Source: Advenella kashmirensis W13003 (GTDB taxonomy: Bacteria > Pseudomonadota > Gammaproteobacteria > Burkholderiales > Burkholderiaceae_B). From it: a stretch of DNA of 64,000 nt. Positions 16,304-41,226 of the stretch are shown piece by piece. The stretch spans positions 62,001 to 126,000 of the forward strand of contig NZ_KI650980.1 in assembly GCF_000506985.1 (NCBI RefSeq). The letters are read 5' to 3'. The stretch's first letter is position 1. The number at the start of each line of letters is the position of its first letter. The notes under the pieces are model-generated. The model made no database searches and was not told the DNA's origin. It worked only from the letters and a program-made list of their open reading frames with translations. A program made the position numbers and the translations under genes.

Positions 16304-17554
16304 TCAAATCTCCATGTAGCTGCGATAGGCATTCCAGAAACCCCGCACCGACGCTTCAGTCGTGCGGTTATCCTGCGTTTCGATACTGTCTCCTCCCATC
16401 TCCAGAATGGCATTTTCATTCTTCGCGCCCGCAATTCCGCGCTGAACAAAACCGCCGACTGCGCCGTCTTCCATGGATATGAAGCCCGCCGGACCGGTCA
16501 GGTTCAATTGCTTGAGTCGCATCCGGCGCAATTGCGGGGAGTCATCTGCGAAGCCGATATACGTCCAGTTCAAAACCGTCTTGTCGGTACCCACGGGCAG
16601 GATTTGCCGGATTGCGAGTGTGTTCTGGATCTGCGCAATGACGAATCCGGGAAACACTGACAGAATTTGCAGTGTAATACCGTCTCCGAACTCATCGCAG
16701 CCATCAAGCAGGGTCGGATCGGCCAGCGCATATCCTTCTTTGTCGGAGCGCAGTTTTTCCGCGTTGTACTCGCTGCTTTCCTGTGCCTGATGATCGACTT
16801 TGGACCAGCTGATATGGTGAGCCCCTGTTTCGCTGATGATCACGCCACCTTTCTGCGACAGGCGGTTGATTCGGAATGTCGTGAAGAACACATGCAGCAG
16901 GCTGGCGTGATAACTGTCCTTCACATTCTCCATGTACAGCTTCCAGTTATTCGGAATGGTTTGCTTGAAGCGTCCCAGGACCTCTACAGGTTTGGGTAGT
17001 ACGCGTTCGATTTTTTCCAGTACCGCATCTCCAAGGTATTCTTCGATTGACGGCACGTCTTCATCGAAGCTGCCGAACACCAGGCCGGCTACCGTTGCGG
17101 TACGCAATTTGCGCGGGCCGTGGTGTTCCTTGCAGAAGTCGGGTGGCATGCCGCCCATGCCGTTCACGCCTTGCTCGAATGCGACGCCTTTCAGATTGCC
17201 TTGCAAATCATAGCGCCATGCATGATAGACACAGGTAAAGTCCTGCGCCTTGCCGCTGTCTTTCAATGCGATCAGCGAGCCGCGGTGCGCGCAGCGATTT
17301 TCGAACGACTGCACCTGGTCTTCATCGTCTCGCACAACGATGACCGGCGTCTCTCCAACAAACGTGGTGCGATAGTCCCCGGGCTCGGGGATGTCCGCTT
17401 CCAGACACAGATAGTTCCAGGTCGGGCCCTGAAATAAACGCTGTTGTTCCGTGCGATAGATCGGCTGGTCGCTATATAACCAGTATGGGACCTGAGTCAG
17501 CCCGGGTTCCCACGTGCGTTCGATGCCGCGCATATCGTTAAGTTTCATTTCCAC
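16304..17554 (-). CDS. tphA2: Terephthalate 1,2-dioxygenase large (alpha) subunit
   Basis: 416 residues. Rieske ligands are Cys88, His90, Cys108 and His111 (CAHR, CVYH); the catalytic iron is held by Asp213, His216 and His221 (D-x2-H-x4-H in [10 protein letters not shown]). The GTG at 17554 sits six bases after AGGAG; the ATG two codons later is an alternative. It dihydroxylates terephthalate at carbons 1 and 2. Neighbours tphC and tphA3 are in the Comamonas order, which makes this assignment secure. Confidence 0.9.
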
Positions 17555-17585: not shown

Positions 17586-18566
17586 TTAATTCGGCTGGAC
17601 GCCAGCCTGCTCGATCACTTTTTTCCAGCGGACACGCTCGGCGGCAATGAACTCACCCGTTTCCTTTGGTGATTGGCCGACGACTTCAGCTCCCTGGCCA
17701 AGAAATTGCTTCTTCACATCCGGCATGTTCAGGATGTCGACGATAGCGGTATTGAGCTTCTGGATGATTTCGTCAGCTGTCCCGGGTGGGGCCGCTGCGG
17801 CAAACCATGTCGTGGCGCTGAAACCGGGCAAGCCGCTTTCCGAAATGGTCGGCACATCAGGTAGCAATGGGCTGCGATTGGTCCCGGCGACGGCCAGTAT
17901 TTTGGTCTTGCCTGCGCTGTGATAGGAGTGCATGGAACTGATGTTGTCAAAGAACACATCCACTTGGCCACCTACCAGATCCGTGAGCGCGGGTGCGGTG
18001 CCGCGATAGGGCACAAAAGTAAACTTCGCGCCTGCCTGCTCGGCAAACATGGCGGCGGTCAGGTGTGATGTGGTGCCATTGCCCTGCGTCGCCACATTGA
18101 CGCTTCCGCCTTTCTCCCGGGCATATTTGATGAACGCCTGGGTTGATGCCACAGGCAGGCTGCTTTTTACAGCCAGGACGTTTGGTACAGACGCCAGCAC
18201 TGTGATCAACTCGAAATCTTCAGGGTCGAATGGCAGGTCTTTGTAAAGCTTTTTATTGATAGCCAACGGCGCCGGTGGTGTCACAAGCAGGGTGTAGCCG
18301 TCAGGCGTCGCTTTCGCAACATAATCGGTGCCGATATTGCCGCCGGCGCCGGTCCGATTTTGAATGACCACAGGCTGCCCCCATTTCTCGGACAACTTCT
18401 GCGCAACGATGCGGGGCAGCACGTCGGCAGTGCCGCCGGCAGGAAATGGGACGACGATTGTGATCGGCTTGCTGGGATAGCTGTCCGCCGGACTGGCTAT
18501 CCCGGCACTACAGGTGCCGATAAGCACGCTCGCCAGCAATGGGCGGCAAAAAATACGAGGGTTCAT
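17586..18566 (-). CDS. tphC: Terephthalate-binding Bug/TctC periplasmic protein
   Basis: 326 residues from the ATG at 18566. The frame is open another 43 codons upstream, but that part would run into the operator region and hide the signal peptide (MNPRIFCRPLLASVLIGTCSAGIASP). It has NRTGAGGNIG and TPDGYTLL typical of the family. In Comamonas TphC binds terephthalate and delivers it to a TctA/TctB-type permease encoded elsewhere. It is the first gene of the tph operon, divergent from tphR. Confidence 0.9.
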   Translation of the reverse strand: MNPRIFCRPLLASVLIGTCSAGIASPADSYPSKPITIVVPFPAGGTADVLPRIVAQKLSEKWGQPVVIQNRTGAGGNIGTDYVAKATPDGYTLLVTPPAPLAINKKLYKDLPFDPEDFELITVLASVPNVLAVKSSLPVASTQAFIKYAREKGGSVNVATQGNGTTSHLTAAMFAEQAGAKFTFVPYRGTAPALTDLVGGQVDVFFDNISSMHSYHSAGKTKILAVAGTNRSPLLPDVPTISESGLPGFSATTWFAAAAPPGTADEIIQKLNTAIVDILNMPDVKKQFLGQGAEVVGQSPKETGEFIAAERVRWKKVIEQAGVQPN

Positions 18567-18677
18567 TTCAATATCTCTTACTTGGTATGGAAGGGGCTTC
18601 TGTCGATACGCCTGGAAGAAGGACTGGACAGGAATCCTAGGTTTAACTTTGACCTTCGTCAACAAAATACGATAATA

Positions 18678-18694
18678 TGTGCGCATATCGCACA
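18678..18694. promoter_or_regulatory. IclR-type operator between tphC and tphR
   Basis: A 17-bp palindrome, TGTGCG-CATAT-CGCACA, has exact 6-bp arms. It has the same length and symmetry as the pca operator (TGTTCG...CGAACA at 9431-9447) with a changed recognition core. It lies 30 bp before the tphR start and 112 bp before tphC, as expected for TphR control of both. I found no third half-site. Confidence 0.7.
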
Positions 18695-18723
18695 AATAAA
18701 TCCAATGTTTTCAGAGAGTGACT

Positions 18724-20384: not shown

Positions 20385-20511
20385 TATTCGATTTCCCGTT
20401 AGCGTGTATTGCCCATCATCGATCGACGCAATGATACTCCCTCCCTAAAATAGGTACAAGAACCAGAAAAAAAACACGCTGGGACTTATATAAAACACCG
20501 GAGACTTGATT

Positions 20512-21480
20512 GTGAAATTGCTGCTGATTCGAATTTTTTGTATCGCCAGTCTGACCTTGACTGGCGCTAACGCCAGCGCTCAGGCATGGCCGACAGAGCC
20601 CGTAAAACTGGTCGTTCCTTTTGATGCCGGCTCTACGCCAGACCTTGTTGCACGCCTGATAGGCGGGGGTCTGGCCGAGAAACTGCGTCAACCCTTTGTC
20701 GTTGAAAATAGCAGTGGTGCGGCCGGCAATATCGGCACCAACGCCATCGCCAGAGCGCAGGCAGACGGACGTACGATTGGCGTCAGCATTGCCGGTCCGC
20801 TAGGCGTCAATTCACTTCTATTCAGAAAAATGCCATATGACGTGGATAAAGATATCGCTCTGGTGACGATCGCTGTGTCACAGCCCTCCGTCCTGGTGGT
20901 CGGCTCGACGCTGACGGCAACGACTGCAAAGCAGTTGGTCACTTCCATGAAAGGGGACTCGAAACTCAGCTTCGCTTCAATCGGGGCCGGCTCGATCTCG
21001 CATCTGGCGATGGCAGCACTGGTCGCGCAGACCGGCGGCGATGCGGTTCATATTCCGTACCGTGGATCGGGTGCTGCGGTAACGGCGATTTTGTCGGGCG
21101 ACGTGGACATGGGGTTACTGCCTGCTGCGGCCGTCATGCCGCATGTGAAAGCCGGGAAGCTCCGGGCGCTGGCGGTCGCCTCGCCCAACAGGTCACCGTC
21201 GCTTCCGGATATACCGACCTTGAGCGAAAGCGGCTTGCCAGACATCAAGGGAGATGCCTGGATCGGCTTCATTGCGCCAGCGAAAACGCCTGATACTGTC
21301 ATTAAAAGCCTCCATGACAATATTGTGCAAATCCTTGAAGAGCCTGCAGTGAAAGATAAGCTGCGTATGCAATACATGGATCCGGTCGGAAATTCGCCCG
21401 ATGAATTTCGTACGCTTCTGCAGGCCGACCTGGCACGCTGGAAGGCAGTAGTGGAAAAAAACCAGATTAACAAGGATTAA
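20512..21480 (+). CDS. Bug/TctC-family periplasmic solute-binding protein
   Basis: 322 residues from a GTG at 20512, eight bases after GGAG; an in-frame TTG at 20506 is too near that site. Signal peptide: KLLLIRIFCIASLTLTG followed by ASA. The family loop reads NSSGAAGNIG with DGRTIG in place of the usual PDGYT, a mild departure. Next gene: an FAD oxidoreductase five bases downstream, suggesting that both serve the same acid. Confidence 0.88.
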   Translation: MKLLLIRIFCIASLTLTGANASAQAWPTEPVKLVVPFDAGSTPDLVARLIGGGLAEKLRQPFVVENSSGAAGNIGTNAIARAQADGRTIGVSIAGPLGVNSLLFRKMPYDVDKDIALVTIAVSQPSVLVVGSTLTATTAKQLVTSMKGDSKLSFASIGAGSISHLAMAALVAQTGGDAVHIPYRGSGAAVTAILSGDVDMGLLPAAAVMPHVKAGKLRALAVASPNRSPSLPDIPTLSESGLPDIKGDAWIGFIAPAKTPDTVIKSLHDNIVQILEEPAVKDKLRMQYMDPVGNSPDEFRTLLQADLARWKAVVEKNQINKD

Positions 21481-22871: not shown

Positions 22872-23591
22872 CTATTGGTCTAGTCGTTCTTCTACTTTTT
22901 GTTTCCATAACTCCCAGGGGCGATGCATAACACCACAAATAGAGGCATCCGCCTTCTCTCCTTCCTCATCTTCCAAATAAATAATTTCGCCGCCCAGGTT
23001 AATCGCTTTCTCTTGCAACGATGCATTCAATTCCGTATAGATGGCACGATAAACGGCTACCGCCAGGCTGCTGCCGACCGCAACAAAGCCATGTCCCCGC
23101 ATTAGAGAGATATTGGCGTCCCCGAGGATCCTGGATAGCTCCGCGCCGTGATCGCAGCACGTCACCAGTAAATCGGTGTTGCCGAACATTTTCCTGATAT
23201 CGAATATGGGTGCGCCACCCGTCAGAAATCCTGCCATGTGATAAATGGGGCGCAGGCGTACGCTGGATGCTGCGAACGGTATGACAGAAGGGGAATGACT
23301 ATGAACGATGGCCTGAACGTCAGGGCGCTGTTTATAGATTTCGCCGTGAATGTAGCGTTCCAGGTAGAGCCTCCTGGTATCTCCATGAAGGGGCTCCGAG
23401 TCAAGATTGAACTCGATGATGTCGTCTTGAGTGACCAGTTCCGGAGCCAGTGAGCGCGATAGAAAGTAATGTTCGGAATGGTCGGGATTGCGCATGCTGA
23501 CGTGTCCAAAACCATCCAGGACGCCATGCTGTGCCAGAATCCGATTGGCCAGGACCAGGTCGAATTTGTCGAATTTCAACTCGTTGCTCAT
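22872..23591 (-). CDS. Class II aldolase/adducin-family protein
   Basis: 239 residues. The zinc ligands are visible as AIVHSHS (two histidines, about residues 92-94) and RGHGFVAVG (third histidine, near residue 155). Members cleave or decarboxylate 2-hydroxy or 2-oxo acids; several relatives in aromatic pathways are decarboxylases. Downstream partner of the Bug gene at 23621, from which it is separated by 29 bp. Substrate unknown. Confidence 0.82.
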   Translation of the reverse strand: MSNELKFDKFDLVLANRILAQHGVLDGFGHVSMRNPDHSEHYFLSRSLAPELVTQDDIIEFNLDSEPLHGDTRRLYLERYIHGEIYKQRPDVQAIVHSHSPSVIPFAASSVRLRPIYHMAGFLTGGAPIFDIRKMFGNTDLLVTCCDHGAELSRILGDANISLMRGHGFVAVGSSLAVAVYRAIYTELNASLQEKAINLGGEIIYLEDEEGEKADASICGVMHRPWELWKQKVEERLDQ

Positions 23592-23620: not shown

Positions 23621-24610
23621 TTAATTGAGTGTGATATTGGATTGTTGGGCGAGTTTCTTGTATGTGGCCAGATCGTGGTCTACAAGCTGACTCATATTTT
23701 TCGAGTCCCTAATGTCGATTTCATAAAAGCGGCTTTTAAAATCATTTTGCAATGACGGTTCTTTCATGGTCAGCAGGACGGCAGCCTCGATTTTTTTCTG
23801 GATCGCCAGGGGAACGCCAGACGGTGCAAACAGTCCGAACCAAACGCTGATATCCATATCACCGAAAGGTTCTGTTTCCGATATGGACGGAACATCCGGC
23901 ATAAAAGACAGGCGGTTTTTTGAGGCAATGCCCAGCATGCGCAACGTTCCCTCTTGTACATGAGGACCTGCATTGGGAATGGTGCTAAAGAGAATGGGGA
24001 CCTGATTGCCTACACCGTCATTCACGGCGGGCGCGCATCCTTTGTAAGGCACATGCACGATATCAAGCTTTGTCAGCAAGTTAAATTTGGCTCCGGCAAA
24101 ATGCTGTGGGGTGCCGGTGCCGCAAGACGAATAGCTGAGCTTGTCCTGATTTTTTCTTGCATAGGCCACTAACTCATCAACGTTGTTGACGGGCATTTTA
24201 CTGTTGACTGCGAGCGCGATAGGAGTCGACACGAGGTTCGCTACAGGACTAAGTTCTTTCTTGATGTCCAGCCCTTTTGTCAGGCCCACACTGGCATTGA
24301 TTGTCAGAGTGCTATTGGTCAGCAGCAGCGTATAGCCGTCGGGTTTTGAGCGGGAAACGTAGCTGGCTCCGATGTTGCCGGAGGCGCCCGCTTTGTTTTC
24401 TATCACTATCGGAGCATGGTCCAGATTTTTGGATAGTTCTTTTCCCAGCATCCGCGCGACCAGATCCGCACCGCCACCAGCAGAGAAGGGAACGACAATA
24501 GTGATGGGCTTGTCGGGAAAGGTTTGCGCGTAACTGCTCGCAGAAACCAGTGCCAGAGTGCAGATAAGTGCCGGCGCACTGAGCTTAAGAACGCATTTTC
24601 TACTGATCAT
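23621..24610 (-). CDS. Bug/TctC-family periplasmic solute-binding protein
   Basis: 329 residues from the ATG at 24610, seven bases after GGAG. Earlier in-frame ATG and GTG codons overlap that ribosome site. Signal peptide KLSAPALICTLALVSASSYAQ ends at about residue 28. Hallmarks NKAGASGNIG and KPDGYTLL are intact. It is the first gene of a minus-strand pair with the class II aldolase, and diverges from the HTH-citrate-synthase genes across a dyad-containing region. Confidence 0.9.
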   Translation of the reverse strand: MISRKCVLKLSAPALICTLALVSASSYAQTFPDKPITIVVPFSAGGGADLVARMLGKELSKNLDHAPIVIENKAGASGNIGASYVSRSKPDGYTLLLTNSTLTINASVGLTKGLDIKKELSPVANLVSTPIALAVNSKMPVNNVDELVAYARKNQDKLSYSSCGTGTPQHFAGAKFNLLTKLDIVHVPYKGCAPAVNDGVGNQVPILFSTIPNAGPHVQEGTLRMLGIASKNRLSFMPDVPSISETEPFGDMDISVWFGLFAPSGVPLAIQKKIEAAVLLTMKEPSLQNDFKSRFYEIDIRDSKNMSQLVDHDLATYKKLAQQSNITLN

Positions 24611-24666
24611 TGTCATCTCCACATTGACTTATACTTTAATTTCAGTAAAGATTACTCGTAGCTTGT

Positions 24667-24691
24667 AAGTTGATCAATCTTGATTCAACTT
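24667..24691. promoter_or_regulatory. 25-bp dyad between Bug gene and HTH-citrate-synthase pair
   Basis: AAGTTGA (24667-24673) and TCAACTT (24685-24691) are exact inverted arms, and inside them ATCAA and TTGAT form a second inverted pair. The size and symmetry resemble operators of MerR-type dimers. It is 56 bp before the Bug start on one side and 61 bp before the citrate-synthase-like start on the other. Candidate binding site for the HTH domains of the two adjacent proteins. Confidence 0.45.
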
Positions 24692-24752
24692 TCAATGTTC
24701 AATATGCCACTTTCCAACCATCGAAGTTTTTTGCGCATTGCAAACAGAGACT

Positions 24753-26018
24753 ATGGAAAAAGAAGAATCTCCAACAGACATCGGAAAACAAAGCTATCTG
24801 ACAGCCAAAGAGGTGATAGGCATACTTGATATCAAGCCACAGACTCTATACGCATATGTCAGTCGGGGCTGGGTACGCACGATCGGACAGCAAGGCACGC
24901 GAGTGAAGCTTTATGTACGGGAAGATGTCGAAAAGCTGCAGGCGCGAAGCCAGGCCAGAGCCGGCCACGGCCCCAACGCCGCAGCGGCGCTGCGCTGGGG
25001 GGAGCCGGTCATCAACTCTGCCATTACGGAGTTGACACCGTTCGGACCACGCTACCGCGGCATGCTGGCGACGGAGCTTGCGCGAATGGAGTGCGCCTTC
25101 GAGGCTACTGCAGATTTGCTTTGGAGCGGGCTCTGGAATGAAAAGACTGCATCCTGGCCCAGCAATCGTCCCGGGCTGGAATTTATTAGACTTGCCCGCC
25201 CTTATTTCCAAAAAACATCAGTAGATTTGATACAGGGCAGATTGGCAATACTGGTGCAGTTTCTATCTGAAACACAGGAGGGTAATCCGGAGTTTGCCCT
25301 GGGCTCCATGCTCGCCGCCGGGCGTCAGATCATACATGTGGTTGCCGGCGCATTTGGCATGTTGTGCGGCAAACCGTTAGTTCTGGCCAATTCCGATGAG
25401 GCAGTGGCTGATCTTCTGATGCGGGCGATGGACTTGAGTGCAGAAGACAGAATACGGCGCGGACTGAACGCTGCATTGACGCTGGCTGCCGATCATGAAC
25501 TCGCAGTACCCACGTTCACGACCCGGGTCGCAGCTTCAACCGGCGCTAACCTGAATGCCTGCGTTATGACCGGGCTGGTTACTTTTGACGGCCCCCTGAC
25601 AGGGAACAGGGGTAATGGTATCGAAGAATTGGTATTAATCTGTAAAACAAAGGCTGATCTTAAGGAGAACGTGCTGCGCGCTTATAAGCAAGGGCGGCAG
25701 TTGGGCGGATTCAACCATCCGATGTATCCCGCGGGCGATGTGAGGGCTCAGGTCTTGATCGAGTATGCACGTTCGTTGCCGGCGATTCCGGCGAACGCGC
25801 ATGCTTTGCTCGAAACGCTGGAAGAAGTTGCGAGGGACTGCCACCTTATGCCGTCGTTTCCTGCCGGTCTGGTTGCCCTGCAATTGGCATTGGGGCTTCC
25901 TCCGCGCTGTGGCAGCACATTGTTCTTTCTCGGGCGGATTGCCGGCCTGGTTGCGCATGTGCAGGAGCAGCGCATGGCCGCTTTTCTTATCCGTCCCAGG
26001 GCGAGATATGTCGGATGA
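24753..26018 (+). CDS. Citrate-synthase-like protein with N-terminal helix-turn-helix
   Basis: 421 residues from the ATG at 24753. Residues about 15-62 form an excisionase/MerR-like DNA-binding helix-turn-helix (LTAKEVIGILDIKPQTLYAYVSRG). The rest has the citrate synthase fold: YRGMLATELA, AADHELAVPTFTTRVAASTGAN, GFNHPMYP and LGRIAGLVAHVQEQ align with E. coli GltA blocks. By eye only one catalytic residue survives. GltA His264 aligns with Thr283 (GPLTGN), His305 is kept as His322 (GFNHP), and Asp362 aligns with Ser368. It is probably not a citrate synthase; a ligand-sensing regulator or a CoA-ester lyase or hydrolase is possible. Overlaps the next gene, a paralogue, by 11 bp. Confidence 0.8.
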   Translation: MEKEESPTDIGKQSYLTAKEVIGILDIKPQTLYAYVSRGWVRTIGQQGTRVKLYVREDVEKLQARSQARAGHGPNAAAALRWGEPVINSAITELTPFGPRYRGMLATELARMECAFEATADLLWSGLWNEKTASWPSNRPGLEFIRLARPYFQKTSVDLIQGRLAILVQFLSETQEGNPEFALGSMLAAGRQIIHVVAGAFGMLCGKPLVLANSDEAVADLLMRAMDLSAEDRIRRGLNAALTLAADHELAVPTFTTRVAASTGANLNACVMTGLVTFDGPLTGNRGNGIEELVLICKTKADLKENVLRAYKQGRQLGGFNHPMYPAGDVRAQVLIEYARSLPAIPANAHALLETLEEVARDCHLMPSFPAGLVALQLALGLPPRCGSTLFFLGRIAGLVAHVQEQRMAAFLIRPRARYVG

Positions 26019-27264
26019 CGATATGCATTTAGACTACGCAACGGCAGAAGAAGCAATATCGCTGCTGAAAATCCGAGCGGAAACACTTTACACCTATGTA
26101 AGCCGCGGGCTTATCAGAAGCATCCCTCAGCCTGGTCTGAAAACAAAGCTTTACTTGAAAGAAGACCTGGAGCGATTGCTTGCCCGTTCGACAGCCCGCA
26201 ATGGCCATGGCCCATCAGCCGCCTCGGCCATGAACTGGGGCGAACCCATTATCCCGACGTCAATCACTGAAATTACCCCGGATGGCCCCAAATATCGAGG
26301 GAAGAACGTGATTGAACTCGCACAGTCAGGCGCTTCTTTCGAAACAGTGGCAGATCTTTTGTGGACCGGGATCAGTACCGCAAGTCATTCTGCCTGGCCC
26401 GGCACAAGAAATCATCAAAACATTATCGCGTTGACAGAATTAATAGAAACCGAAATCAGTAATGAATTTCTGGAAGTGATGGCGTCTATCACATTACATT
26501 TAGGTTTGTTAGGCGGTTCGACTTCAGAACGCCTTCCTGGCGAAAACACCATATCCGCCGGGCGGGAAATAATCCAAATACTTACGGGATGCTTTGGATA
26601 TATGACTCCAAAGCGCAGATACATTCCCTTGCGCGAAGGCCAGTCAATTGCGGCAGGCTTAATTCAGGCCTTAGGTCTGGAGGATACCGCCGAAAATTAT
26701 GAAATATTTCAATCTATCCTGGTCATTCTGGCGGATCATGAGTTATCGCCGGGCACGTTTGCTACCCGGGTAGCAGCGTCCAGCGGCTGCACGCTGCATA
26801 GCTGTATTGCGTCTGCAATTTGCACTAGTTCAGGGGGCAGAATCGGCAGACTATATGAACAGGTGGATATTTTTCTGGCGAGAAACAGAACCGTAAAAAA
26901 AATGATCGAAAGCGCCAATCTTTTACAAAACAGAGGGGTAGTGGTACCGGGGTTCAATCACCCGCTCTACCCGCGCGGAGATCCGCGCGGACGCTATTTA
27001 ATGGACCTGCTTCGGCGACTCAGGAAAGGCTATAAAGAAATCGACAGAGTATGTCTGTTTTCCGAATTTATGAATACAGAACATCAAAGTCATCCACGTC
27101 ACGAACTTGCCATTGTCGCACTCACGCGGTCGATGTCGTTGCCGCCGCAAACGCCGGCCGCGCTATTTGTACTTTCACGAATTGCCGGGTGGGTAGCCCA
27201 CGTGCAGGAACAAAGACTTTCGAGTATGCTGCTTCGGCCAAGAGCGAAGTTCAACAATGCTTAG
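26008..27264 (+). CDS. Second citrate-synthase-like protein with N-terminal helix-turn-helix
   Basis: 418 residues from the ATG at 26008, inside the end of the preceding paralogue; the frame stays open upstream but that part is antisense-like sequence. HTH at about residues 10-55 (TAEEAISLLKIRAETLYTYVSRG). The GltA active site is lost here too, apart from one histidine. The His264 position is Ile279 in a GGRIGR segment, His305 is kept as His318 (GFNHPLYP) and the Asp362 position is Arg364. ADHELSPGTFATRVAASSG keeps the CoA/oxaloacetate region. Two overlapping, differently decayed copies suggest an obligate heteromer. Downstream is a Bug gene with its own leader. Confidence 0.8.
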   Translation: MSDDDMHLDYATAEEAISLLKIRAETLYTYVSRGLIRSIPQPGLKTKLYLKEDLERLLARSTARNGHGPSAASAMNWGEPIIPTSITEITPDGPKYRGKNVIELAQSGASFETVADLLWTGISTASHSAWPGTRNHQNIIALTELIETEISNEFLEVMASITLHLGLLGGSTSERLPGENTISAGREIIQILTGCFGYMTPKRRYIPLREGQSIAAGLIQALGLEDTAENYEIFQSILVILADHELSPGTFATRVAASSGCTLHSCIASAICTSSGGRIGRLYEQVDIFLARNRTVKKMIESANLLQNRGVVVPGFNHPLYPRGDPRGRYLMDLLRRLRKGYKEIDRVCLFSEFMNTEHQSHPRHELAIVALTRSMSLPPQTPAALFVLSRIAGWVAHVQEQRLSSMLLRPRAKFNNA

Positions 27265-27429
27265 GTTTCCAATACAGTGAAAAAAAGGCGCCGTACCAAC
27301 CGGGCACGAAGCGTCCGAAGCTGACTCATGATGTCGCTTTTTCTACACACGTCGATTGAATATTCGTGATTGAAGAGGTAAAAAGTTCTCCGTAGAATGG
27401 GCTGGCCATAAAAAATAACGGAGACAAAA

Positions 27430-28407
27430 ATGAAATACGACCGCCGTACAGTGCTCAAACTACTTTGTTCTACTACCGCCGTTGTCACTCTTCCTGAACT
27501 GGCGTATGCGCAAGAATTTCCAGCCAGGCCAATCCAGATAATCGTCCCGTTGCCACCAGGCGGATCCAATGATGTTCTGGCCAGGCTCCTGGGTCAGAAA
27601 ATGTCCGAAGCATTTGGTCAGCCCGTGGTGGTAGAGAACCGACCGGGGGCAGCGGGCAACATTGCCACGAACGATCTGGCCAAATCCAAGCCCGACGGCT
27701 ACACAATTGCAATTGCGCCGAATCAGACCGTTGCGGTCAATCCGGTGCTGTATCCGGATCTTCCTTATGATGTGCTGAAAGATATACAAGGTATCAGCAT
27801 GCTGGGCCGTGTTCCAATGGTGCTCGTCGACTCGCCAAGCGTATCCGCCGCATCTGTTAGTGAACTCATTGCACTGGCCAAGTCCCGGCCTGCAGAGTTG
27901 ACCTACGCTTCTGCGGGCTCGGGCAGCCCTCAACATATGGCAGCAGAGGTGTTCCAGTCGATGACAGGTGTGACCTTGACGCACATTCCATATAAGGGGT
28001 CGGTCCCTGCACTGGTTGATGTGGTTGCCGGCAGGGTCGACATGATGTTCTGTCCACTTAACTCGGCGCTGCCGCACATCGGCAGCGGCAAGCTGCGAGC
28101 CCTGGGAACAACCGGGTTAAAGCGGGTTGAATTATTGCCGGACGTGCCCACGATCGGCGAGACGGTTCCTGGCTTTGAAAGCGACATCTGGATAGGTATG
28201 GTGGCGCCGGCCAAGACGCCTTCATCGGTGATAAACAAACTTAATGCCGAATTGCGCAAGGCCCTGGACTTGCCCGATGTCCGCAAGACATTGGCTGAAC
28301 AGGGAATTATGTCCGAGAGCAGTACTGCAGCCGATTTTAACAAACTGATCGCGGATGATCAGAAGCGCTGGGCTGCGGTCGTCAAGGACGCAAAAATCAA
28401 GCCTTAG
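27430..28407 (+). CDS. Bug/TctC solute-binding protein with Tat-like signal
   Basis: 325 residues. The N-terminus MKYDRRTVLKLL carries a twin-arginine-type motif (DRRTVLK) before a hydrophobic stretch and PELAYAQ, unlike the plain Sec signals of most neighbours. The ligand loop NRPGAAGNIA and KPDGYTIA is intact. It precedes a ThDP enzyme and an aldehyde dehydrogenase, with a hairpin in the 85-bp gap. Its ligand may be the 2-oxo acid used by those enzymes. Confidence 0.9.
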   Translation: MKYDRRTVLKLLCSTTAVVTLPELAYAQEFPARPIQIIVPLPPGGSNDVLARLLGQKMSEAFGQPVVVENRPGAAGNIATNDLAKSKPDGYTIAIAPNQTVAVNPVLYPDLPYDVLKDIQGISMLGRVPMVLVDSPSVSAASVSELIALAKSRPAELTYASAGSGSPQHMAAEVFQSMTGVTLTHIPYKGSVPALVDVVAGRVDMMFCPLNSALPHIGSGKLRALGTTGLKRVELLPDVPTIGETVPGFESDIWIGMVAPAKTPSSVINKLNAELRKALDLPDVRKTLAEQGIMSESSTAADFNKLIADDQKRWAAVVKDAKIKP

Positions 28408-28492: not shown

Positions 28493-30277
28493 ATGACAGC
28501 TTCTTCCGTCGCCTCGGTGCGTCGCGATATTCCTTTGTCCTCCCCGGCGGATAAAACCGCCTGGTGCAGTGACGCGATTGCAGATACTCTGCGGGCCATG
28601 GATATTCCCTACGTGTTGTTGAATCCCGGCGCAAGTTTTCGCGGACTGCACGATAGCATCGTCAATCATCTTGGCAACGAAAGGCCGCAAATGATTGTCG
28701 TGCTACATGAAGAGCATGCTGTGGCAATCGCTCATGGCTACGCCAAAGTGGCGGGCAGGCCGCTGGCAGCAATTCTGCATAGCAACGTCGGATTAATGCA
28801 CGGCTCGATGGCCATATTCGATGCGTGGGTGGATAGGGTACCGGTCATCGTACTTGGAGCGACGGGCCCGGTCGACGCAGCCAAGCGCCGGCCCTGGATT
28901 GACTGGATTCATACCGCACAGGACCAGGCCGCGCTGGTGCGCCATTTCATCAAGTGGGATGCGCAACCCGCATCTATCGGTGCTGCACAGGAAGCCATGC
29001 TACGTGCAAACCAAATTGCGACCACTGCGCCGCAAGGGCCTGTATATATTTGTTTTGACGCCGCGCTTCAGGAGTCCAGGTTAACAGAGAAGGCTTTCAT
29101 GCCCGAGCTGTCACGCTACCGCGCGCCACCTTCGGCACGACCCGCCGACAAGTTGATTCTTCAGGCCGCAGCACTGCTCTCGAAAGCGCAGCGACCCGTT
29201 ATCCTGGCGGGTCGGGTCAGCCGGGATGAGATGGGATGGCGTCAGCGCATCCAACTGGCTGAAACATTGAACGCTGAAGTGCTGACTGATCTGAAAGTAG
29301 GGTGTGCGTTTCCGACCGACCATGCGCTGCATGCGGCGCCGGCAGGGCATTTCCTGAATCCCGCGGCAAAGCAGGTCCTGCGCAGTGCCGACGTGGTGCT
29401 GAGCCTTGATTGGCTGGATTTGGCAGGCACGCTGAAGCAAGCCTGGGAAGGTGAGGTGGTCGGCAGCACGATCATCCAGGTTTCGGTAGATCACTATAGT
29501 CATAACGGCTGGAGCATGGATCATCAAGGCCTGCCGCCGGTTGACCTCTTTCTGCTGAGCGAGCCGGAGCCGGCAGTCGAGTTGCTTAATCTGCATGTCA
29601 AGCCTCGTTCCTCCAGGGTGCAAAACCGTCTGCCGAAGCCGGCTATGGATGTGCCGGCGCACGGAGCGTTGACGGTTCCCATATTGGCTGGTGTTTTGCG
29701 GCGCGCTATCGGCGGACAGAAGACCTGCCTGATGCGTCTTCCGCTGAGCTGGAGCGGTGATCTGTGGGACTTCCGGCATCCGCTTGATTTCCTTGGATAT
29801 GACGGCGGTGGCGGCATCGGTTCCGGGCCGGGCATGGCAATCGGGTCGGCGTTGGCGCTAAAAGGCACTGATCGCCTGCCTGTGGCAGTAATCGGCGACG
29901 GCGATTATCTGATGGGTGTCAATGCGCTCTGGACTGCGGCGAATGCGCAAATTCCCATGCTCATGATCGTATGCAACAACCGTTCTTTCTTCAACGATGA
30001 AGTTCATCAGGAACGCGTTGCCGGCCAACGCAATCGCCCCACGGAAAATCGCTGGATAGGTCAACGTATTACCAATCCTGCCCCAGATCTGGCATCAATG
30101 GCGCGGGCGCAGGGCTGGACGGCATTTGGACCGATCGAAGATGCCGGCGAGTTCGCGCAGCTGCTTCCGGGTGCAATCGCGGCCGTCAAAAACGGGTCCA
30201 TGGTCGTGATCGACGTGGTGGTGCAAGCCGGATACAGCCCGTCAATGACCGCGGGCCTGACCCGTTCGGACGACTAG
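28493..30277 (+). CDS. ThDP-dependent enzyme, benzoylformate decarboxylase/acetolactate synthase-like
   Basis: 594 residues from the ATG at 28493, which has TTGGAG upstream. N-terminal PYR domain with LHEEHAVAIAHGYAK, where the Glu activates the cofactor, then a central domain and a PP domain with the metal/diphosphate motif GDGDYLMG...NN (from about residue 467). ILHSNVG aligns with the segment that holds His70 of benzoylformate decarboxylase. With the following aldehyde dehydrogenase it makes a plausible 2-oxo acid to aldehyde to acid route, as in mandelate catabolism. The acetolactate synthase or oxalyl-CoA type cannot be excluded. Confidence 0.78.
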   Translation: MTASSVASVRRDIPLSSPADKTAWCSDAIADTLRAMDIPYVLLNPGASFRGLHDSIVNHLGNERPQMIVVLHEEHAVAIAHGYAKVAGRPLAAILHSNVGLMHGSMAIFDAWVDRVPVIVLGATGPVDAAKRRPWIDWIHTAQDQAALVRHFIKWDAQPASIGAAQEAMLRANQIATTAPQGPVYICFDAALQESRLTEKAFMPELSRYRAPPSARPADKLILQAAALLSKAQRPVILAGRVSRDEMGWRQRIQLAETLNAEVLTDLKVGCAFPTDHALHAAPAGHFLNPAAKQVLRSADVVLSLDWLDLAGTLKQAWEGEVVGSTIIQVSVDHYSHNGWSMDHQGLPPVDLFLLSEPEPAVELLNLHVKPRSSRVQNRLPKPAMDVPAHGALTVPILAGVLRRAIGGQKTCLMRLPLSWSGDLWDFRHPLDFLGYDGGGGIGSGPGMAIGSALALKGTDRLPVAVIGDGDYLMGVNALWTAANAQIPMLMIVCNNRSFFNDEVHQERVAGQRNRPTENRWIGQRITNPAPDLASMARAQGWTAFGPIEDAGEFAQLLPGAIAAVKNGSMVVIDVVVQAGYSPSMTAGLTRSDD

Positions 30278-30319: not shown

Positions 30320-31792
30320 ATGCGAACCCATGAAATCCCTGATGGTATCCTGCCTCGGCAGCGTGGCCTTTACTACGGCGGCGCCTGGCACGAACCTTTA
30401 GCAGGCATGTATGCCGAAACCATTAACCCAAGCTACAATGAGCCCATTGCAAGCGCGCCAGTCGCCGACACGGGTGATGTTGATGCCGCAGTCCAGGCAG
30501 CGCACAAAGCCTTTCCCGGCTGGGCATCGACCCTGCCCGCAGCGCGCGGCCGGTTTCTTCGTGAGGCCGCTGCCGTGTTGCGCAAACATGCCATGCCGCT
30601 TGCGCAGCTGGATGCGTTGAATAATGGCAATCCGGTTTCCGCTCTGGCGAATGACGCTGTGTTTGCCGCCGACTGTCTGGAGTACTTTGCTGGCCTGGCG
30701 ACGGAAATAAAAGGCGAAACCATCCCTATGGGCGATGGCAATCTGAACTACACGCTGCAGGAGCCGCTAGGCGTGATCGCCCGCATCGTTGCGTACAACC
30801 ATCCATTAATGTTCGCGGCCGCGCGCCTGGCGGCACCATTGGCTGCGGGTAATACCGTCGTTGTGAAAGCGCCGGATCAGGCGCCCCTGTCCATTCTGCG
30901 ACTTGCGGAGCTTATCGGTGATGTATTTCCGCCAGGGGTGGTCGCCTTTCTATGTGGTGGGAGCGAATGCGGCGAGGCGATGGGGAAACATCCACTTGTG
31001 AGGAAAATTACCTTGATTGGCGGTGTGCCCACAGGTAAGGCCGTCATGCGCAGCGCCTCTGATGGCCTGAAACCCGTGTTGCTCGAGCTGGGTGGAAAAA
31101 ATGCGCTCATTGCTTATCCCGATGCCGATATAGAGCGCCTGGTCGACGGTATTATTGGCGGCATGAATTTTACCTGGTCAGGGCAGAGTTGCGGGTCCAC
31201 GAGCAGGGTTTTTTTGCATGAATCCATTCATGATCAGGTTTTGAAGAAAGTGGTTGATCTGCTGCCTCGGCGGCACAAGCCGGGTATTCCAACTGATCCG
31301 GCGACCACAATGGGATCACTCGTGAGTCGGGCGCAGCTTGAAAAGGTGGAACGCTATGTCGGGGTTGGCCAGGAAGAGGGGGGACGGCTGGTGTGTGGGG
31401 GTAAACGGCCAGCCGATCCATCACTGAAAGATGGCTTCTTCTATGAGGCCACGGTCTTTGCTGACATGCAGCCACATATGCGTCTGGCCCGGGAAGAGGT
31501 TTTCGGACCCGTCATGTCCGTTTTTAAATGGGAAAATGAAAATACATTATTCGAACAGGTGAACGGCGTGGATTTTGGCCTTACCGGCTCGGTCTGGACG
31601 AAGGACCTCAACACAGCACACCGTGCAGCCAGACGGCTTAATACCGGCTATGTCTGGATCAACAATTCCAGTCAGCACTTCATGGGAGCGCCGTTCGGTG
31701 GTGTGAAACAATCGGGCATTGGACGCGAAGAGTGCTTTGCCGAGTTGCTGGAGTTTACTTACACGAAGAATGTGAATCTGAAGTTCGGTTGA
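30320..31792 (+). CDS. NAD(P)-dependent aldehyde dehydrogenase
   Basis: 490 residues of the ALDH superfamily. The catalytic cysteine is Cys291 (GQSCGS), the general-base glutamate is in LELGGKN (around 256), and the cofactor pocket has AYNHPLMFAAARLAAPLAAGN. The C-terminal FGGVKQSGIGRE is typical of betaine-aldehyde and aromatic-aldehyde dehydrogenases. It follows the ThDP enzyme by about 40 bp with AAGGAAA before the ATG, and probably oxidises the aldehyde that enzyme releases. Confidence 0.9.
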   Translation: MRTHEIPDGILPRQRGLYYGGAWHEPLAGMYAETINPSYNEPIASAPVADTGDVDAAVQAAHKAFPGWASTLPAARGRFLREAAAVLRKHAMPLAQLDALNNGNPVSALANDAVFAADCLEYFAGLATEIKGETIPMGDGNLNYTLQEPLGVIARIVAYNHPLMFAAARLAAPLAAGNTVVVKAPDQAPLSILRLAELIGDVFPPGVVAFLCGGSECGEAMGKHPLVRKITLIGGVPTGKAVMRSASDGLKPVLLELGGKNALIAYPDADIERLVDGIIGGMNFTWSGQSCGSTSRVFLHESIHDQVLKKVVDLLPRRHKPGIPTDPATTMGSLVSRAQLEKVERYVGVGQEEGGRLVCGGKRPADPSLKDGFFYEATVFADMQPHMRLAREEVFGPVMSVFKWENENTLFEQVNGVDFGLTGSVWTKDLNTAHRAARRLNTGYVWINNSSQHFMGAPFGGVKQSGIGREECFAELLEFTYTKNVNLKFG

Positions 31793-32871: not shown

Positions 32872-34188
32872 TTAGCGGTTGTCTACGTTGTAGGAAGGCT
32901 CAAGAGCGGGCTCGTGTTCGTCCCACACATATTTGATGTCGACAGTTTTCCAGTCTGCCGTTTTCGGAATAATGGCCTGAAACGCACACACCTCGGGTGT
33001 TATGCAGGTATCCCCGGTCCCGATAGCCGGTTGCCCTGCCTGAAAGGCCTTGACAGCTTCCAGCATACGCCGGCGAAATTCCACAATTGCCAGGTCGCTG
33101 GCGCCAAGGCGTTCCTCGGCCCGGTTGGCAATCGGCCCCATCGTGACCCACATGGCGATGTCCTGATTCGGAAAGCCGGTAATTCCTGTGAAATTGCCGG
33201 CTTTCATTGCGTCGCGGTTCTGCCAGAATTTGTTTTCCCGGTTGCGCAGTGGTACGTAATTTTCATCCAGGTCAACGCCTACGCGCTGCCCCAGAAACGA
33301 CCTCCAGGACTCTGTATCCGGTGTCGTCGCAGGATGCCCCCAGGCGATGAAGTAGAATGCGGTCGTGGTGTCATCCACAGGCACATTGATGTTCGCCACG
33401 TTATAAAGATTATTGGGCGGAATTAATGCGGTGGAAGGAGCCACGAATACCGTGGAACGAACATAGTCATTCGCCATCGAGTTTGTAATGGGCCGGCGCA
33501 GGGCTGCGTATCTGAATCCGTAAGGTGTATTGTCAATTTGAAGGCGAGGGGCTTTATCTGTTGAAGGACGCAACCAGGTTTTGTCCGTTGCCTTGGCGCT
33601 ATCGACTCGCGCGGGAACCATGTCGGACGAATGCAGGCTTGAGCTATGCGCCGAGTCAATCGCTCCCTCTAAAATCTGGGCCCAGTTGCATGGAATAATC
33701 GCCTTGGCGATCGTGACCGTGACGTTTTCGTTCGGGGCCCAGACCGGCGGCCTGAAGTCCGGCATGGTCTCAATCGGTCCCATATATGCCCAGACAAATC
33801 CTCCCCATTCTTTTGTCGGATAGGCCAGGTGTTTTACCTTATCTTTAAAGCAGCTGGAAGGAGGTTCGGAGACCATTTCCAGCACCTGCCCCTTTGTATT
33901 CATTTTCCAGCCATGATACAGGCAGCGCAATCCGCCTTCTTCGTTACGGCCAAACACTAACGATGCCCGCCGATGTGGGCAGTACTCATCCATAACCCCG
34001 ACCTGACCTTGCGTATCGCGAAAGACAACCAGATCTTCTCCAAATAAACGCGCCTTGACCGGTGCGCCGTCGGGGTCGCTGACTTCTTCAATTAAACAGA
34101 CGGGAGTCCAATGGCGTCGCATTAACTGCCCCATTGGCGCATCCCCGACGACGCGGCATAACAAATCATTGTCTTCTGAGCTAAGCAT
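32872..34188 (-). CDS. pht3: Phthalate 4,5-dioxygenase oxygenase component
   Basis: 438 residues from the ATG at 34188, eight bases after GAGG; eight codons upstream in frame are not needed. Rieske ligands Cys70, His72, Cys89, His92; iron ligands Asp178, His181, His186. It hydroxylates phthalate at carbons 4 and 5. This class works without a beta subunit and takes electrons from an FMN/ferredoxin reductase, encoded here by the divergent gene at 35401. The Rieske protein at 267 is its close relative. Confidence 0.9.
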   Translation of the reverse strand: MLSSEDNDLLCRVVGDAPMGQLMRRHWTPVCLIEEVSDPDGAPVKARLFGEDLVVFRDTQGQVGVMDEYCPHRRASLVFGRNEEGGLRCLYHGWKMNTKGQVLEMVSEPPSSCFKDKVKHLAYPTKEWGGFVWAYMGPIETMPDFRPPVWAPNENVTVTIAKAIIPCNWAQILEGAIDSAHSSSLHSSDMVPARVDSAKATDKTWLRPSTDKAPRLQIDNTPYGFRYAALRRPITNSMANDYVRSTVFVAPSTALIPPNNLYNVANINVPVDDTTTAFYFIAWGHPATTPDTESWRSFLGQRVGVDLDENYVPLRNRENKFWQNRDAMKAGNFTGITGFPNQDIAMWVTMGPIANRAEERLGASDLAIVEFRRRMLEAVKAFQAGQPAIGTGDTCITPEVCAFQAIIPKTADWKTVDIKYVWDEHEPALEPSYNVDNR

Positions 34189-34224
34189 AATATAAACCTC
34201 TGTTAAATCCAAAAATTACATTTG

Positions 34225-35217
34225 CTAATCAATGGAGATTTTTGCATGTTCAATCGCCTTTAAATAACGATCGGATTCTTCTCTGGTATTGGCGCCGTAC
34301 GCCTTCGCGTCGCCGCCCACTGCTTCAATTCCCAGCGTGGCCATGTGCTGTTTAAATGCCGGTACTTTGGCAATCTCAGCAACAGCCGAGCCGATTTTCC
34401 GGACAACGGATTCAGGGCTGCCTGTGCGGGCAAGAATGCCCACGGAGACCGCGAAGCCGTAATTTGGAACCACCTCGGAAATGGTAGGAATGTCTTTGTC
34501 CAGTTCGCTTCTATGTAACGAGTTGGATGCCAGGATTCTGACTTTGCCCTGTTCAACATACCCTTTGAGGGAAGGCAGAGCAGCAAATGCGACCTGAATC
34601 TGGTTACCGACTAATGCCGGAATAGACTGGCTGGATCCACGGTACGGAACATGGGTCAAATTCAGACCCAGCTCTGACTTCAACGCCTCCATGGCTAAAT
34701 GGTGGGTACTTCCGACGCCGGATGAGCCATAACTGTATTTATTCGGATTGGCTTTGACCAGATCTATGAACTGTTGAAGCGTCGTGACGTTCAGCGAGCT
34801 ATGTACCGCCAAAAACAGGGGGGATGTCGCGATCAAAGATACAGGTACAAAGTCTTTGAACGGATCATAAGAAAGATTTTTGTAGATATGTGGATTGATG
34901 GAAATCATCGATCCGTCCGTGACCAGGAAGGTATAACCGTCGGCGGGGTTGTTTTTGATTGTATTGGCAGCGACCACGCCATTGGCCCCGGGCTTGTTTT
35001 CCACCACAACTGATTGATTTAGTTTCTTGCCCAACGCTTCGGCGACCAGGCGGGCAACCGTATCAGGTAAGCCGCCAGGGGAGTACGGTACAACAAACGT
35101 GATTGGCCTGACGGGATATTCCGCAGCGACGCTGGAAGCGGACAAACCCATCGCCAGGCTACCCGCTGCAATGCCGATACAGGACCGAAAAAGCGAATTA
35201 AATATTTTGAAATACAT
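34225..35217 (-). CDS. Bug/TctC-family periplasmic solute-binding protein of the phthalate operon
   Basis: 330 residues with a strong AGGAGG before the ATG at 35217. The Sec signal ends near SSVAA. NKPGANGVV and NPADGYTFLV are the family loops, the latter with an Ala insertion-like change from KPDGYT. First gene of the minus-strand half of the phthalate locus. Phthalate is the obvious ligand candidate, in the way TphC binds terephthalate; this is inference from position. Confidence 0.88.
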   Translation of the reverse strand: MYFKIFNSLFRSCIGIAAGSLAMGLSASSVAAEYPVRPITFVVPYSPGGLPDTVARLVAEALGKKLNQSVVVENKPGANGVVAANTIKNNPADGYTFLVTDGSMISINPHIYKNLSYDPFKDFVPVSLIATSPLFLAVHSSLNVTTLQQFIDLVKANPNKYSYGSSGVGSTHHLAMEALKSELGLNLTHVPYRGSSQSIPALVGNQIQVAFAALPSLKGYVEQGKVRILASNSLHRSELDKDIPTISEVVPNYGFAVSVGILARTGSPESVVRKIGSAVAEIAKVPAFKQHMATLGIEAVGGDAKAYGANTREESDRYLKAIEHAKISID

Positions 35218-39058: not shown

Positions 39059-39149
39059 AACGGTTTTCCTTCTTCCTGCGCATGTTTGCATTCTACTGTG
39101 TCGAATGGGGTATGCGGAACTTGTTTATCAATTTTTATTACAACATTAA

Positions 39150-40248: not shown

Positions 40249-41226
40249 ATGAAGACTTTACTTTCCCGCACGCTGAGTGTGCTGCGAACAATCGTATGCG
40301 CTGCGCTTACCATTTTCTCCTGTTCAGTTGCACAGGCGCAAAATCCGATCCGGTTAATGGTTGGATTTCCTCCCGGAGGAACCACGGATGTCATTGCGCG
40401 CACTTTAGCAAATGAATTGTCAAAACGTATCAATCGGGAAGTTGTGGTGGAGAACAAACCCGGCGCAAGTGGCAATATCGCCGCCTCTTCGGTTGCCCGT
40501 GCGGCACCGGATGGCAGCACCTTGTTGTTTGTTGCTAGTACCCACGCGACTAATGCATCTCTATATCGTAATTTGAATTTTGATACGCGCGGGGATTTTA
40601 GTGTGGTGTCTATGGTGGCAACATCTCCTTACGTGCTGGTTGTTAATCCAACATTGCCGGTCAAGTCGCTAGATGAACTAACTGAATATTTGAAGAAGCA
40701 TCCAGGTAAGGTAAATTTCGCTTCAGCCAGTCCGGGAACCGGTCAACACCTGGCGGGCGAAATTTACAAAAAGTTGGCCAAGGTTGACATCCTGCATGTG
40801 CCTTACAAAGGAAGTGCAGCGGCGCTGTCCGATCTCATCGCAGGCCGTGTCGAAATGATGTTCGACAATATTGCCGTCATGCTGCCGCATATTAAAAGCG
40901 AGGCATTGCGACCACTTGCGATCACTACACAACAGCGTTTCAATGGCCTGCCACAGTTGCCTACCATGGCAGAAAAAGGCTATGCTGAATTTAATGTCTC
41001 CAGCTGGTTTGCGGTGGTGGCACCAGCAAAGACACGTGGCGATTATCTTGATAAGCTTAACCATAGCATCAATGAAATTATCAAGAGTGATGAGTTCGTC
41101 AAGCAGTTGGCGGATTTCGGTGCGGCTCCAATGCCATCAACGCGCGAGCAATCAAGCGCTTACGTGGAAGCAGAAATTGAACGTTGGCAAAAAGTGATTA
41201 ACGATCTTGGCATTAGGATAAACTGA
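40249..41226 (+). CDS. Bug/TctC-family periplasmic solute-binding protein
   Basis: 325 residues with GGCAGGAG before the ATG. The signal peptide is longer than in the paralogues (cleavage probably after SVAQAQ, about residue 27). NKPGASGNIA is kept, while KPDGYT has become APDGSTLL. Placed behind the TauD-like dioxygenase, it is probably specific for that enzyme's substrate or an analogue. Confidence 0.9.
   Translation: MKTLLSRTLSVLRTIVCAALTIFSCSVAQAQNPIRLMVGFPPGGTTDVIARTLANELSKRINREVVVENKPGASGNIAASSVARAAPDGSTLLFVASTHATNASLYRNLNFDTRGDFSVVSMVATSPYVLVVNPTLPVKSLDELTEYLKKHPGKVNFASASPGTGQHLAGEIYKKLAKVDILHVPYKGSAAALSDLIAGRVEMMFDNIAVMLPHIKSEALRPLAITTQQRFNGLPQLPTMAEKGYAEFNVSSWFAVVAPAKTRGDYLDKLNHSINEIIKSDEFVKQLADFGAAPMPSTREQSSAYVEAEIERWQKVINDLGIRIN

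Follow-up and report, generated by a model that had tools for sequence, protein, structure and literature searches.

BzdR, for which our searches returned no paper, senses benzoyl-CoA in aromatic catabolism through a shikimate-kinase-like domain joined to a helix-turn-helix (HTH). Classical MerR proteins carry a dimerising coiled coil and then a small effector domain, enterobacterial PrpR is of the sigma54-dependent Fis type, and PutA is a precedent for a protein that is both an enzyme and a regulator. In the parts of the sources consulted, MocR/GabR proteins are described as a GntR-type winged HTH followed by an aminotransferase fold that senses a pathway metabolite (PMC6917764), and Mycobacterium PrpR as an iron-sulphur/CoA-binding type (PMC6765138). 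Here we analyse two adjoining genes, P1 and P2, in a 64,000-nucleotide stretch of the Advenella kashmirensis W13003 genome (contig NZ_KI650980.1, positions 62,001 to 126,000; hereafter the window). Each unites an HTH and a putative sensor domain with a citrate-synthase (CS) fold in a single chain, and sequence comparisons suggest, with a probability of about 0.86, that both are one-component transcription regulators. To our knowledge the CS fold is undescribed as the sensor of a one-component regulator, and searches of openly licensed papers returned no description of an HTH-fused citrate synthase (HTH-CS) regulator; in the PLSDB gene tables, relatives are labelled 'citrate synthase' or 'citrate/2-methylcitrate synthase'.

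Domains and active-site residues of P1 and P2

Both proteins match Citrate_synt (PF00285; 145 bits for P1 and 146 bits for P2, Pfam cut-off 27), and Foldseek placed their AlphaFold2 models, built on a five-sequence alignment, closest to methylcitrate and citrate synthases (top PDB match 3o8j, E 1.5e-11 for P1 and 3.8e-13 for P2). No NCBIfam model scored above its own cut-off for either protein, the best citrate-synthase scores being 107 and 108 bits against cut-offs of 332 and 421. Five further PF00285 genes, with a strong gltA-like gene and two resembling methylcitrate/citrate synthases among them, lie elsewhere in the genome, and P1 and P2 can therefore be regarded as dispensable for the citric acid cycle. 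An earlier reading of the window from its letters alone (the sequence-only reading) had seen two overlapping paralogues here: the proteins are 36% identical, and their genes share 11 nt with a P2 start at 26008 or lie 4 nt apart with the alternative start at 26023.

The same reading expected an HTH to appear in a structure model, and in both models the all-helical domain follows an N-terminal helix-turn-helix, a two-stranded wing and a helix (P1, HTH at residues 18-69: helices 18-25 and 29-37, strands 43-45 and 52-55, helix 56-69; P2, HTH at residues 13-67: helices 13-20 and 24-32, strands 38-40 and 47-50, helix 51-67). Of 15 aligned HTH-CS relatives, 13 give an HTH_17 match at E<=0.01 (the best at 8.8e-9) and 5 a MerR_1 match; the recognition-helix residues T-L-Y-x-Y-V-S-R-G are near-invariant.

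In citrate synthase, His264 is the base that forms the acetyl-CoA enolate, and arginines bind the carboxylates of oxaloacetate and citrate. We aligned 71 HTH-CS proteins from 70 loci with 37 HTH-less CS plus three CS encoded in the A. kashmirensis genome, placing columns on the motifs of the genome's own GltA and using residue numbers that we take to be those of E. coli GltA. As the sequence-only reading had it, His264 is replaced by Thr283 in P1 and Ile279 in P2, and His305, the GFNHP histidine, is retained (His322 and His318). Its assignment of Asp362 to Ser368 and Arg364 proved wrong, the by-eye alignment being off by two: an ungapped stretch anchored on a shared proline puts Pro370 at this position in P1 and a conservative Glu366 in P2. 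The statement that most catalytic residues are lost thus holds for His264, gone from both proteins, and goes too far for the remainder, as His305 stays in both and P2 has glutamate for Asp362. The carboxylate arginines R314/R387/R407 are retained as R331/R395/R414 in P1 and R327/R391/R410 in P2.

This pattern extends across the family. R314, R387 and R407 are retained in 71, 70 and 71 of the 71 HTH-CS proteins; His264 is present in 28 and absent from 43 (Leu 16, Thr 10, Gln 6, Ile 4, Phe 3, Val 2, Ser 2). In the 43 His264-lost proteins the three arginines are present throughout (43/43), within just 26 invariant columns of 387, and the Asp362 position holds Glu in 27, Phe in 6, Pro in 5, Ala in 3 and Asp in 2. 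The His264-kept proteins have His305 in 26/28 and Asp362 in 28/28, and the HTH-less CS keep His264, His305 and the arginines in 37/37, with Glu at 362 in 14/37. Because the part that grips the acid is retained while the part that performs the chemistry is lost, the pattern is sensor-like; we infer that the arginines bind carboxylates in HTH-CS proteins too, so that a di- or tricarboxylate or a 2-oxo acid, either a product of the adjoining pathway or a compound entering it, is a likely ligand. Certain His264-lost subgroups are also without His305, which is replaced by Leu, Ile or Pro (our locus labels L041, L055, L056, L057 and L059; L065, L081, L082 and L086; L062 and L064), and their ligand probably differs.

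Among 298 other genomes drawn from the phylum, with up to 5 candidates scored in each, at least 34 contain a member of the family; a single-protein search of genome contigs returned just 3 loci, and a wider genome search was used instead. A rapid maximum-likelihood analysis of the CS domains gave a tree that carried a long-branch warning and was rooted only at its midpoint; it resolves three groups, namely the 43 His264-lost proteins (support 98), the 28 His264-kept HTH-CS (97) and the HTH-less CS (99). A single loss of His264 is likely but, because of the long branches and the midpoint root, unproven. P2 falls within a group of 16 (support 99) and P1 within a group of 5 (97). Local tandem duplication was rejected: the closest relative of P1, at L047, belongs to a different genus (60% identity), and the nearest relatives of P2 are other P2-clade genes. 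By these comparisons P1 and P2 did not arise from one another by a recent duplication.

P1 and P2 might instead be a heteromeric or neofunctionalised enzyme that carries out a Claisen-type condensation or a lyase reaction with another base, in which case the HTH would be vestigial or a regulatory addition. The CS fold retained throughout, His305 in both proteins, the glutamate of P2 and the overlapping or nearly overlapping genes are all compatible with an enzyme, and so is the retention of His305 and Asp362 in the His264-kept proteins; catalytic HTH-CS are possible elsewhere in the family because His264, His305 and Asp362 are all present in other members. For the window pair we nevertheless consider an enzyme unlikely, since His264 is replaced in every member of its group, and since an enzyme has no need of the conserved recognition helix and of the conserved DNA site described below. 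The heteromeric form, which the sequence-only reading had offered as an enzyme of a new type, was set aside as the leading explanation, since P1 and P2 come from different subclades of otherwise single genes, the other members lying alone by catabolic operons; the tandem that it named is real in the window and is seen at 1 of 70 HTH-CS loci. Functionless decaying paralogues, or a chance of annotation, would fit the missing catalytic residues and the sequence divergence between P1 and P2, and are scarcely credible beside open frames of 421 and 418 codons, the retention of the three arginines, recognition helix and site, and a P1 relative in another genus that shares the same neighbours at 60% identity.

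Gene order and a predicted operator

The gene upstream of an HTH-CS gene lies on the opposite strand in 64 of 71 cases, against 4 of 20 for ordinary CS genes of the same GTDB family, which are mostly operon-borne methylcitrate synthases (Fisher p 3e-9). Other genes of the HTH-CS loci have a divergent upstream gene in 224 of 813 cases, and when the HTH-CS proteins were collapsed at 60% identity the arrangement was found in 35 of 40. In the His264-lost group, the divergent neighbours were TctC receptors (11), Rieske-domain proteins (6), short-chain dehydrogenases (4), thiamine-pyrophosphate (TPP) enzymes (2) and others; this tally covers 30 of 37, the near-duplicates L003, L050, L066, L072, L082 and L084 and the gene L002 having been dropped. 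On annotated plasmids, HTH-CS genes are divergent from a citrate/methylcitrate synthase (Agrobacterium pAt), an HMGL-like enzyme (Deinococcus) and a CoA transferase (Ewingella), and the HTH-CS gene of an Acidovorax plasmid is not divergent.

A putative operator of 26 bp, with the core TCAATCTTGAT...ATCA, is common to the divergent gaps across the family. Its 14-mer TTGATCAATCTTGA occurs exactly in 12 of 64 HTH-CS gaps and in none of 662 other gaps of the same loci, and with up to 2 mismatches in 28/64 against 2/662. The genome has one exact copy, at window position 24670, inside the dyad that the sequence-only reading had marked at 24667-24691. Scored leave-one-out at a threshold of 10 or more, a 26-position matrix found a site in 32 of 35 non-redundant divergent gaps, as compared with 12 of 662 other gaps; for other divergent gaps the figure was 3 of 100. 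Among loci outside the matrix, 12 of 16 had a site upstream (0 of 166 control windows), a figure that becomes 11/14 once L020 and L029, which repeat the places of L052 and L061, are set aside, and that includes several close kin of loci used. In 11 other genomes, picked for an exact 14-mer in their HTH-CS gap, 13 exact occurrences were counted, every one of them upstream of an HTH-CS match as judged from the coordinates, and the reversed pattern gave 0.

The site also appears where the HTH-CS gene is not divergent. A matrix built on 27 of the leave-one-out sites picked up 11 other gaps, 8 of them plausible targets by position: the site lies between the HTH-CS gene and tctC-TPP enzyme-aldehyde dehydrogenase genes at L051, L053, L060 and L063, and before a tctC-TPP enzyme-aldehyde dehydrogenase-HTH-CS series at L075 (together 5 of the 7 non-divergent HTH-CS loci), and it precedes aldehyde dehydrogenase-TPP enzyme genes adjoining HTH-CS at L061 and L066 and tctC2 in the window. 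From its position at the non-divergent loci, the site tracks the operon promoter and not the regulator gene.

One such site and a probable second one flank the window pair. The dyad upstream of P1 is real, with arms at 24663-24673 and 24685-24695 that are 91% complementary, and it overlaps the predicted operator O1; taken alone it is unremarkable, being equalled in 1 of 20 shuffles of the gap. Shuffling of the gaps led us to drop dyad strength as evidence in favour of sequence conservation, and the dyad at O1 owes its weight to its conservation in relatives. A scan of 24560-24800 for sigma-70 promoters and terminators found none (chance expectation 0.6 and 0.2). A matrix of the P2 clade (9 sites of other genomes, 4 of them identical, none from the window) gave O2, matched at 27352-27374, as the top site of the window, with a score of 23.0, followed by the two strands of O1 (22.99 and 22.5) and a next distinct site at 14.7; sites as good as O2 occur about once per 150,000 positions of other loci, training sites included. 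O2 is probable rather than certain, because the family-wide matrix gives it just 13.2 while unrelated matches reach about 18. The latter, at 39124-39149 and 41069-41094, lie away from any HTH-CS gene and are perhaps due to chance in AT-rich DNA.

The His264-kept proteins show gene orders of their own, 14 of the 28 being divergent from an HTH-less CS. These 14 HTH-less CS (L076, L133, L044, L124, L125, L127, L136, L128, L131, L129, L118, L122, L135 and L132) all carry Glu in place of Asp362, where the remaining 23 carry Asp, and group in a separate clade; they may be a distinct enzyme, for example one acting on another acyl-CoA or oxo acid. In one subclade (support 99), four His264-kept HTH-CS genes stand divergent from genes of the methylcitrate cycle, all above NCBIfam cut-offs: prpB-prpC at L119 (HTH-CS gene at 6376-7608), prpB-prpC-acnD at L121 (5684-6913) and L126 (5699-6916), and acnD-prpF at L134 (5909-7096). 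Each gap holds the exact 14-mer, and the four proteins are candidate methylcitrate-cycle regulators of an undescribed type. Suvorova, Ravcheev and Gelfand reportedly described new regulators in a 2012 study of propionate-pathway regulators of proteobacteria, which may name such members; the claim of novelty is weaker to that extent for these four, and not for the window pair.

Trigger enzymes, which would combine citrate-synthase-like catalysis with regulation of transcription as PutA does in principle, are plausible for the His264-kept group, given its share of the family (28/71), its unbroken retention of Asp362 and the divergence of half its members from an HTH-less CS. The window pair, however, is without His264, and as an account of P1 and P2 we hold this to be very unlikely.

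Several observations weigh against the view of P1 and P2 as regulators. The N-terminal HTH that the sequence-only reading saw is supported by the HTH_17 matches of relatives and fits the model topology, but the HTH_17 scores of P1 and P2 themselves (Table 1) are under the Pfam cut-off of 27; the HTH profile found SoxR only at E 0.083 and MtaN at 0.53 in the PDB, both weak matches, and the models are of modest confidence, especially that of P1 (mean predicted local distance difference test score 63.9, against 72.9 for P2). In the active site, Glu366 of P2 could still sustain some chemistry, and the His264-lost group is uneven: His305 is kept in 32/43 and lost in 11/43, and the histidine of the DHE motif is present in 34/43 and replaced by Asn in 9/43, so that ligands must differ among its members. 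No site was found upstream of L016-L018 and L029 or in 3 of 35 clusters, nor anywhere close to L043 and L130; bare dyads are unremarkable, only 7 of 62 divergent gaps having one unmatched by any of 20 shuffles. Genes in the compared loci were called with our own script rather than a standard caller. Set against these, the HTH, the divergent gene order, the shared site with its dyad, and an arginine triad without His264 lend good support to the idea, also raised by the sequence-only reading, that the proteins sense a carboxylate or CoA ester and bind DNA.

Neighbouring operons and a proposed mechanism

Each gene of the pair adjoins a catabolic operon of its own (Table 1). The divergent TctC of P1-clade relatives is closer to tctC1 than to tctC2 in 4 of 4 cases, and at L047 tctC is followed by a class II aldolase gene, in the order of the window. 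A homologue of the TPP enzyme, for which no NCBIfam model scored above its cut-off, occurs at 10 of 15 other P2-clade loci, at 2 of 4 P1-clade loci and at none of 50 loci belonging to neither clade; its TctC neighbour at P2-clade loci is tctC2-like in 8 of 9 (the exception is L052). The tandem is thus best read as two regulator-plus-operon modules placed back to back, and not as a two-subunit enzyme.

Table 1. Features of the P1-P2 locus, in window positions.
Feature	Position	Strand	Remarks
Class II aldolase/adducin-family protein	22872-23591	-	Behind tctC1; PF00596 95.5 bits
tctC1, tripartite tricarboxylate transporter receptor	23621-24622	-	Divergent from P1; PF03401 191 bits
O1, predicted operator	24670-24695	+	TTGATCAATCTTGATTCAACTTTCAA; between P1 and divergent tctC1; leave-one-out score 29.8
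P1, HTH + citrate-synthase-fold protein	24753-26018	+	421 aa
P1 HTH domain	24795-24941	+	Residues 15-63; HTH_17 18.8 bits
P2, HTH + citrate-synthase-fold protein	26008-27264	+	418 aa
P2 HTH domain	26041-26187	+	Residues 12-60; HTH_17 23.5 bits
O2, probable operator	27352-27377	-	Between P2 and tctC2
tctC2, tripartite tricarboxylate transporter receptor	27430-28407	+	Downstream of P2; PF03401 266 bits
TPP-dependent enzyme, 2-oxo acid decarboxylase-like	28493-30277	+	PF02776/PF00205/PF02775
Aldehyde dehydrogenase	30320-31792	+	PF00171 478 bits

Citrate synthases close upon binding oxaloacetate. We infer DNA binding, the class of ligand and a similar closing mechanism for P1 and P2: binding of the ligand would close the CS dimer, as in the enzyme, and the pair of HTH heads would thereby be displaced with respect to the half-sites within the 26-bp operator. 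P1, and possibly P2 too, would act through O1 on tctC1 and the aldolase gene and on P1's own gene, with a carboxylate from the tctC1-aldolase pathway as its ligand. Through O2, P2 would control tctC2, the TPP enzyme and the aldehyde dehydrogenase in response to a carboxylate from their pathway, perhaps the 2-oxo acid cleaved by the TPP enzyme. For the methylcitrate-linked kin, 2-methylcitrate would be a natural guess; in the part of the source consulted, it is reported as a coactivator of PrpR in Corynebacterium glutamicum (PMC6765138).

The window as a whole looks like a carboxylate/aromatic catabolic island. It holds at least six TctC-like genes (17586-18695, 20506-21480, 23621-24622, 27430-28407, 34225-35217 and 40249-41226), of which those at 23621, 27430 and 34225 are confirmed by PF03401 and the other three are TctC-like by translation or similarity, and Rieske oxygenase genes at 16304-17554 and 32872-34212 (LigXa-like).

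Taking these results together, we favour, with less assurance than for the window pair itself, a widespread and unrecognised class of transcription factors with a CS-fold sensor, filed as citrate synthases and having a single operator code in common, in betaproteobacterial and other proteobacterial genomes as well as in Deinococcus. In this class, a branch that keeps the catalytic residues and lies by methylcitrate-cycle or citrate-synthase genes may read 2-methylcitrate or citrate, and the branch of P1 and P2 would have given up catalysis and serve purely to sense carboxylates or 2-oxo acids in the breakdown of aromatics and organic acids.

Significance and comparison with described systems

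If HTH-CS proteins are regulators, the family carries a wrong functional label in databases, and the predicted operator forecasts its targets. It would also display a stepwise change from enzyme to sensor with both stages extant, one clade still having the catalytic residues, the other being without them, and the arginines persisting in both. From the neighbouring operons, which encode TctC receptors, Rieske oxygenases, TPP enzymes or the methylcitrate cycle, the ligands can be guessed and put to the test, and HTH-CS proteins could act as carboxylate biosensors.

Among described systems, P1 and P2 resemble PrpC and other type II citrate synthases (TIGR01800; PDB 3o8j, 6s87) in a CS fold over residues ~80-416, in the arginine triad and in the DHE and GFxHP histidines. 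They differ in scoring far under the NCBIfam cut-offs (108 against 421 bits, for example), in lacking His264, and in having an N-terminal HTH, a predicted operator and a divergent placement. A likeness to MerR-type regulators such as SoxR and MtaN may lie in the winged, HTH_17/MerR_1-like head, with weak profile matches; the C-terminal part of P1 and P2 is a CS domain in place of a coiled coil and small effector domain. PrpR is comparable through the four relatives that lie where a prp regulator would be expected, in divergent orientation to prpB-prpC(-acnD) or acnD-prpF, but the known PrpR architectures are unlike HTH-CS. BzdR shares the idea of an enzyme-fold sensor, with another HTH and another fold. 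Nearest in idea, by analogy, are MocR/GabR regulators as described in the part of the source consulted: they too place a winged HTH before an entire metabolic-enzyme fold, here the putative sensor, whereas P1 and P2 have an HTH of another family, a CS instead of an aminotransferase fold, and no pyridoxal phosphate.

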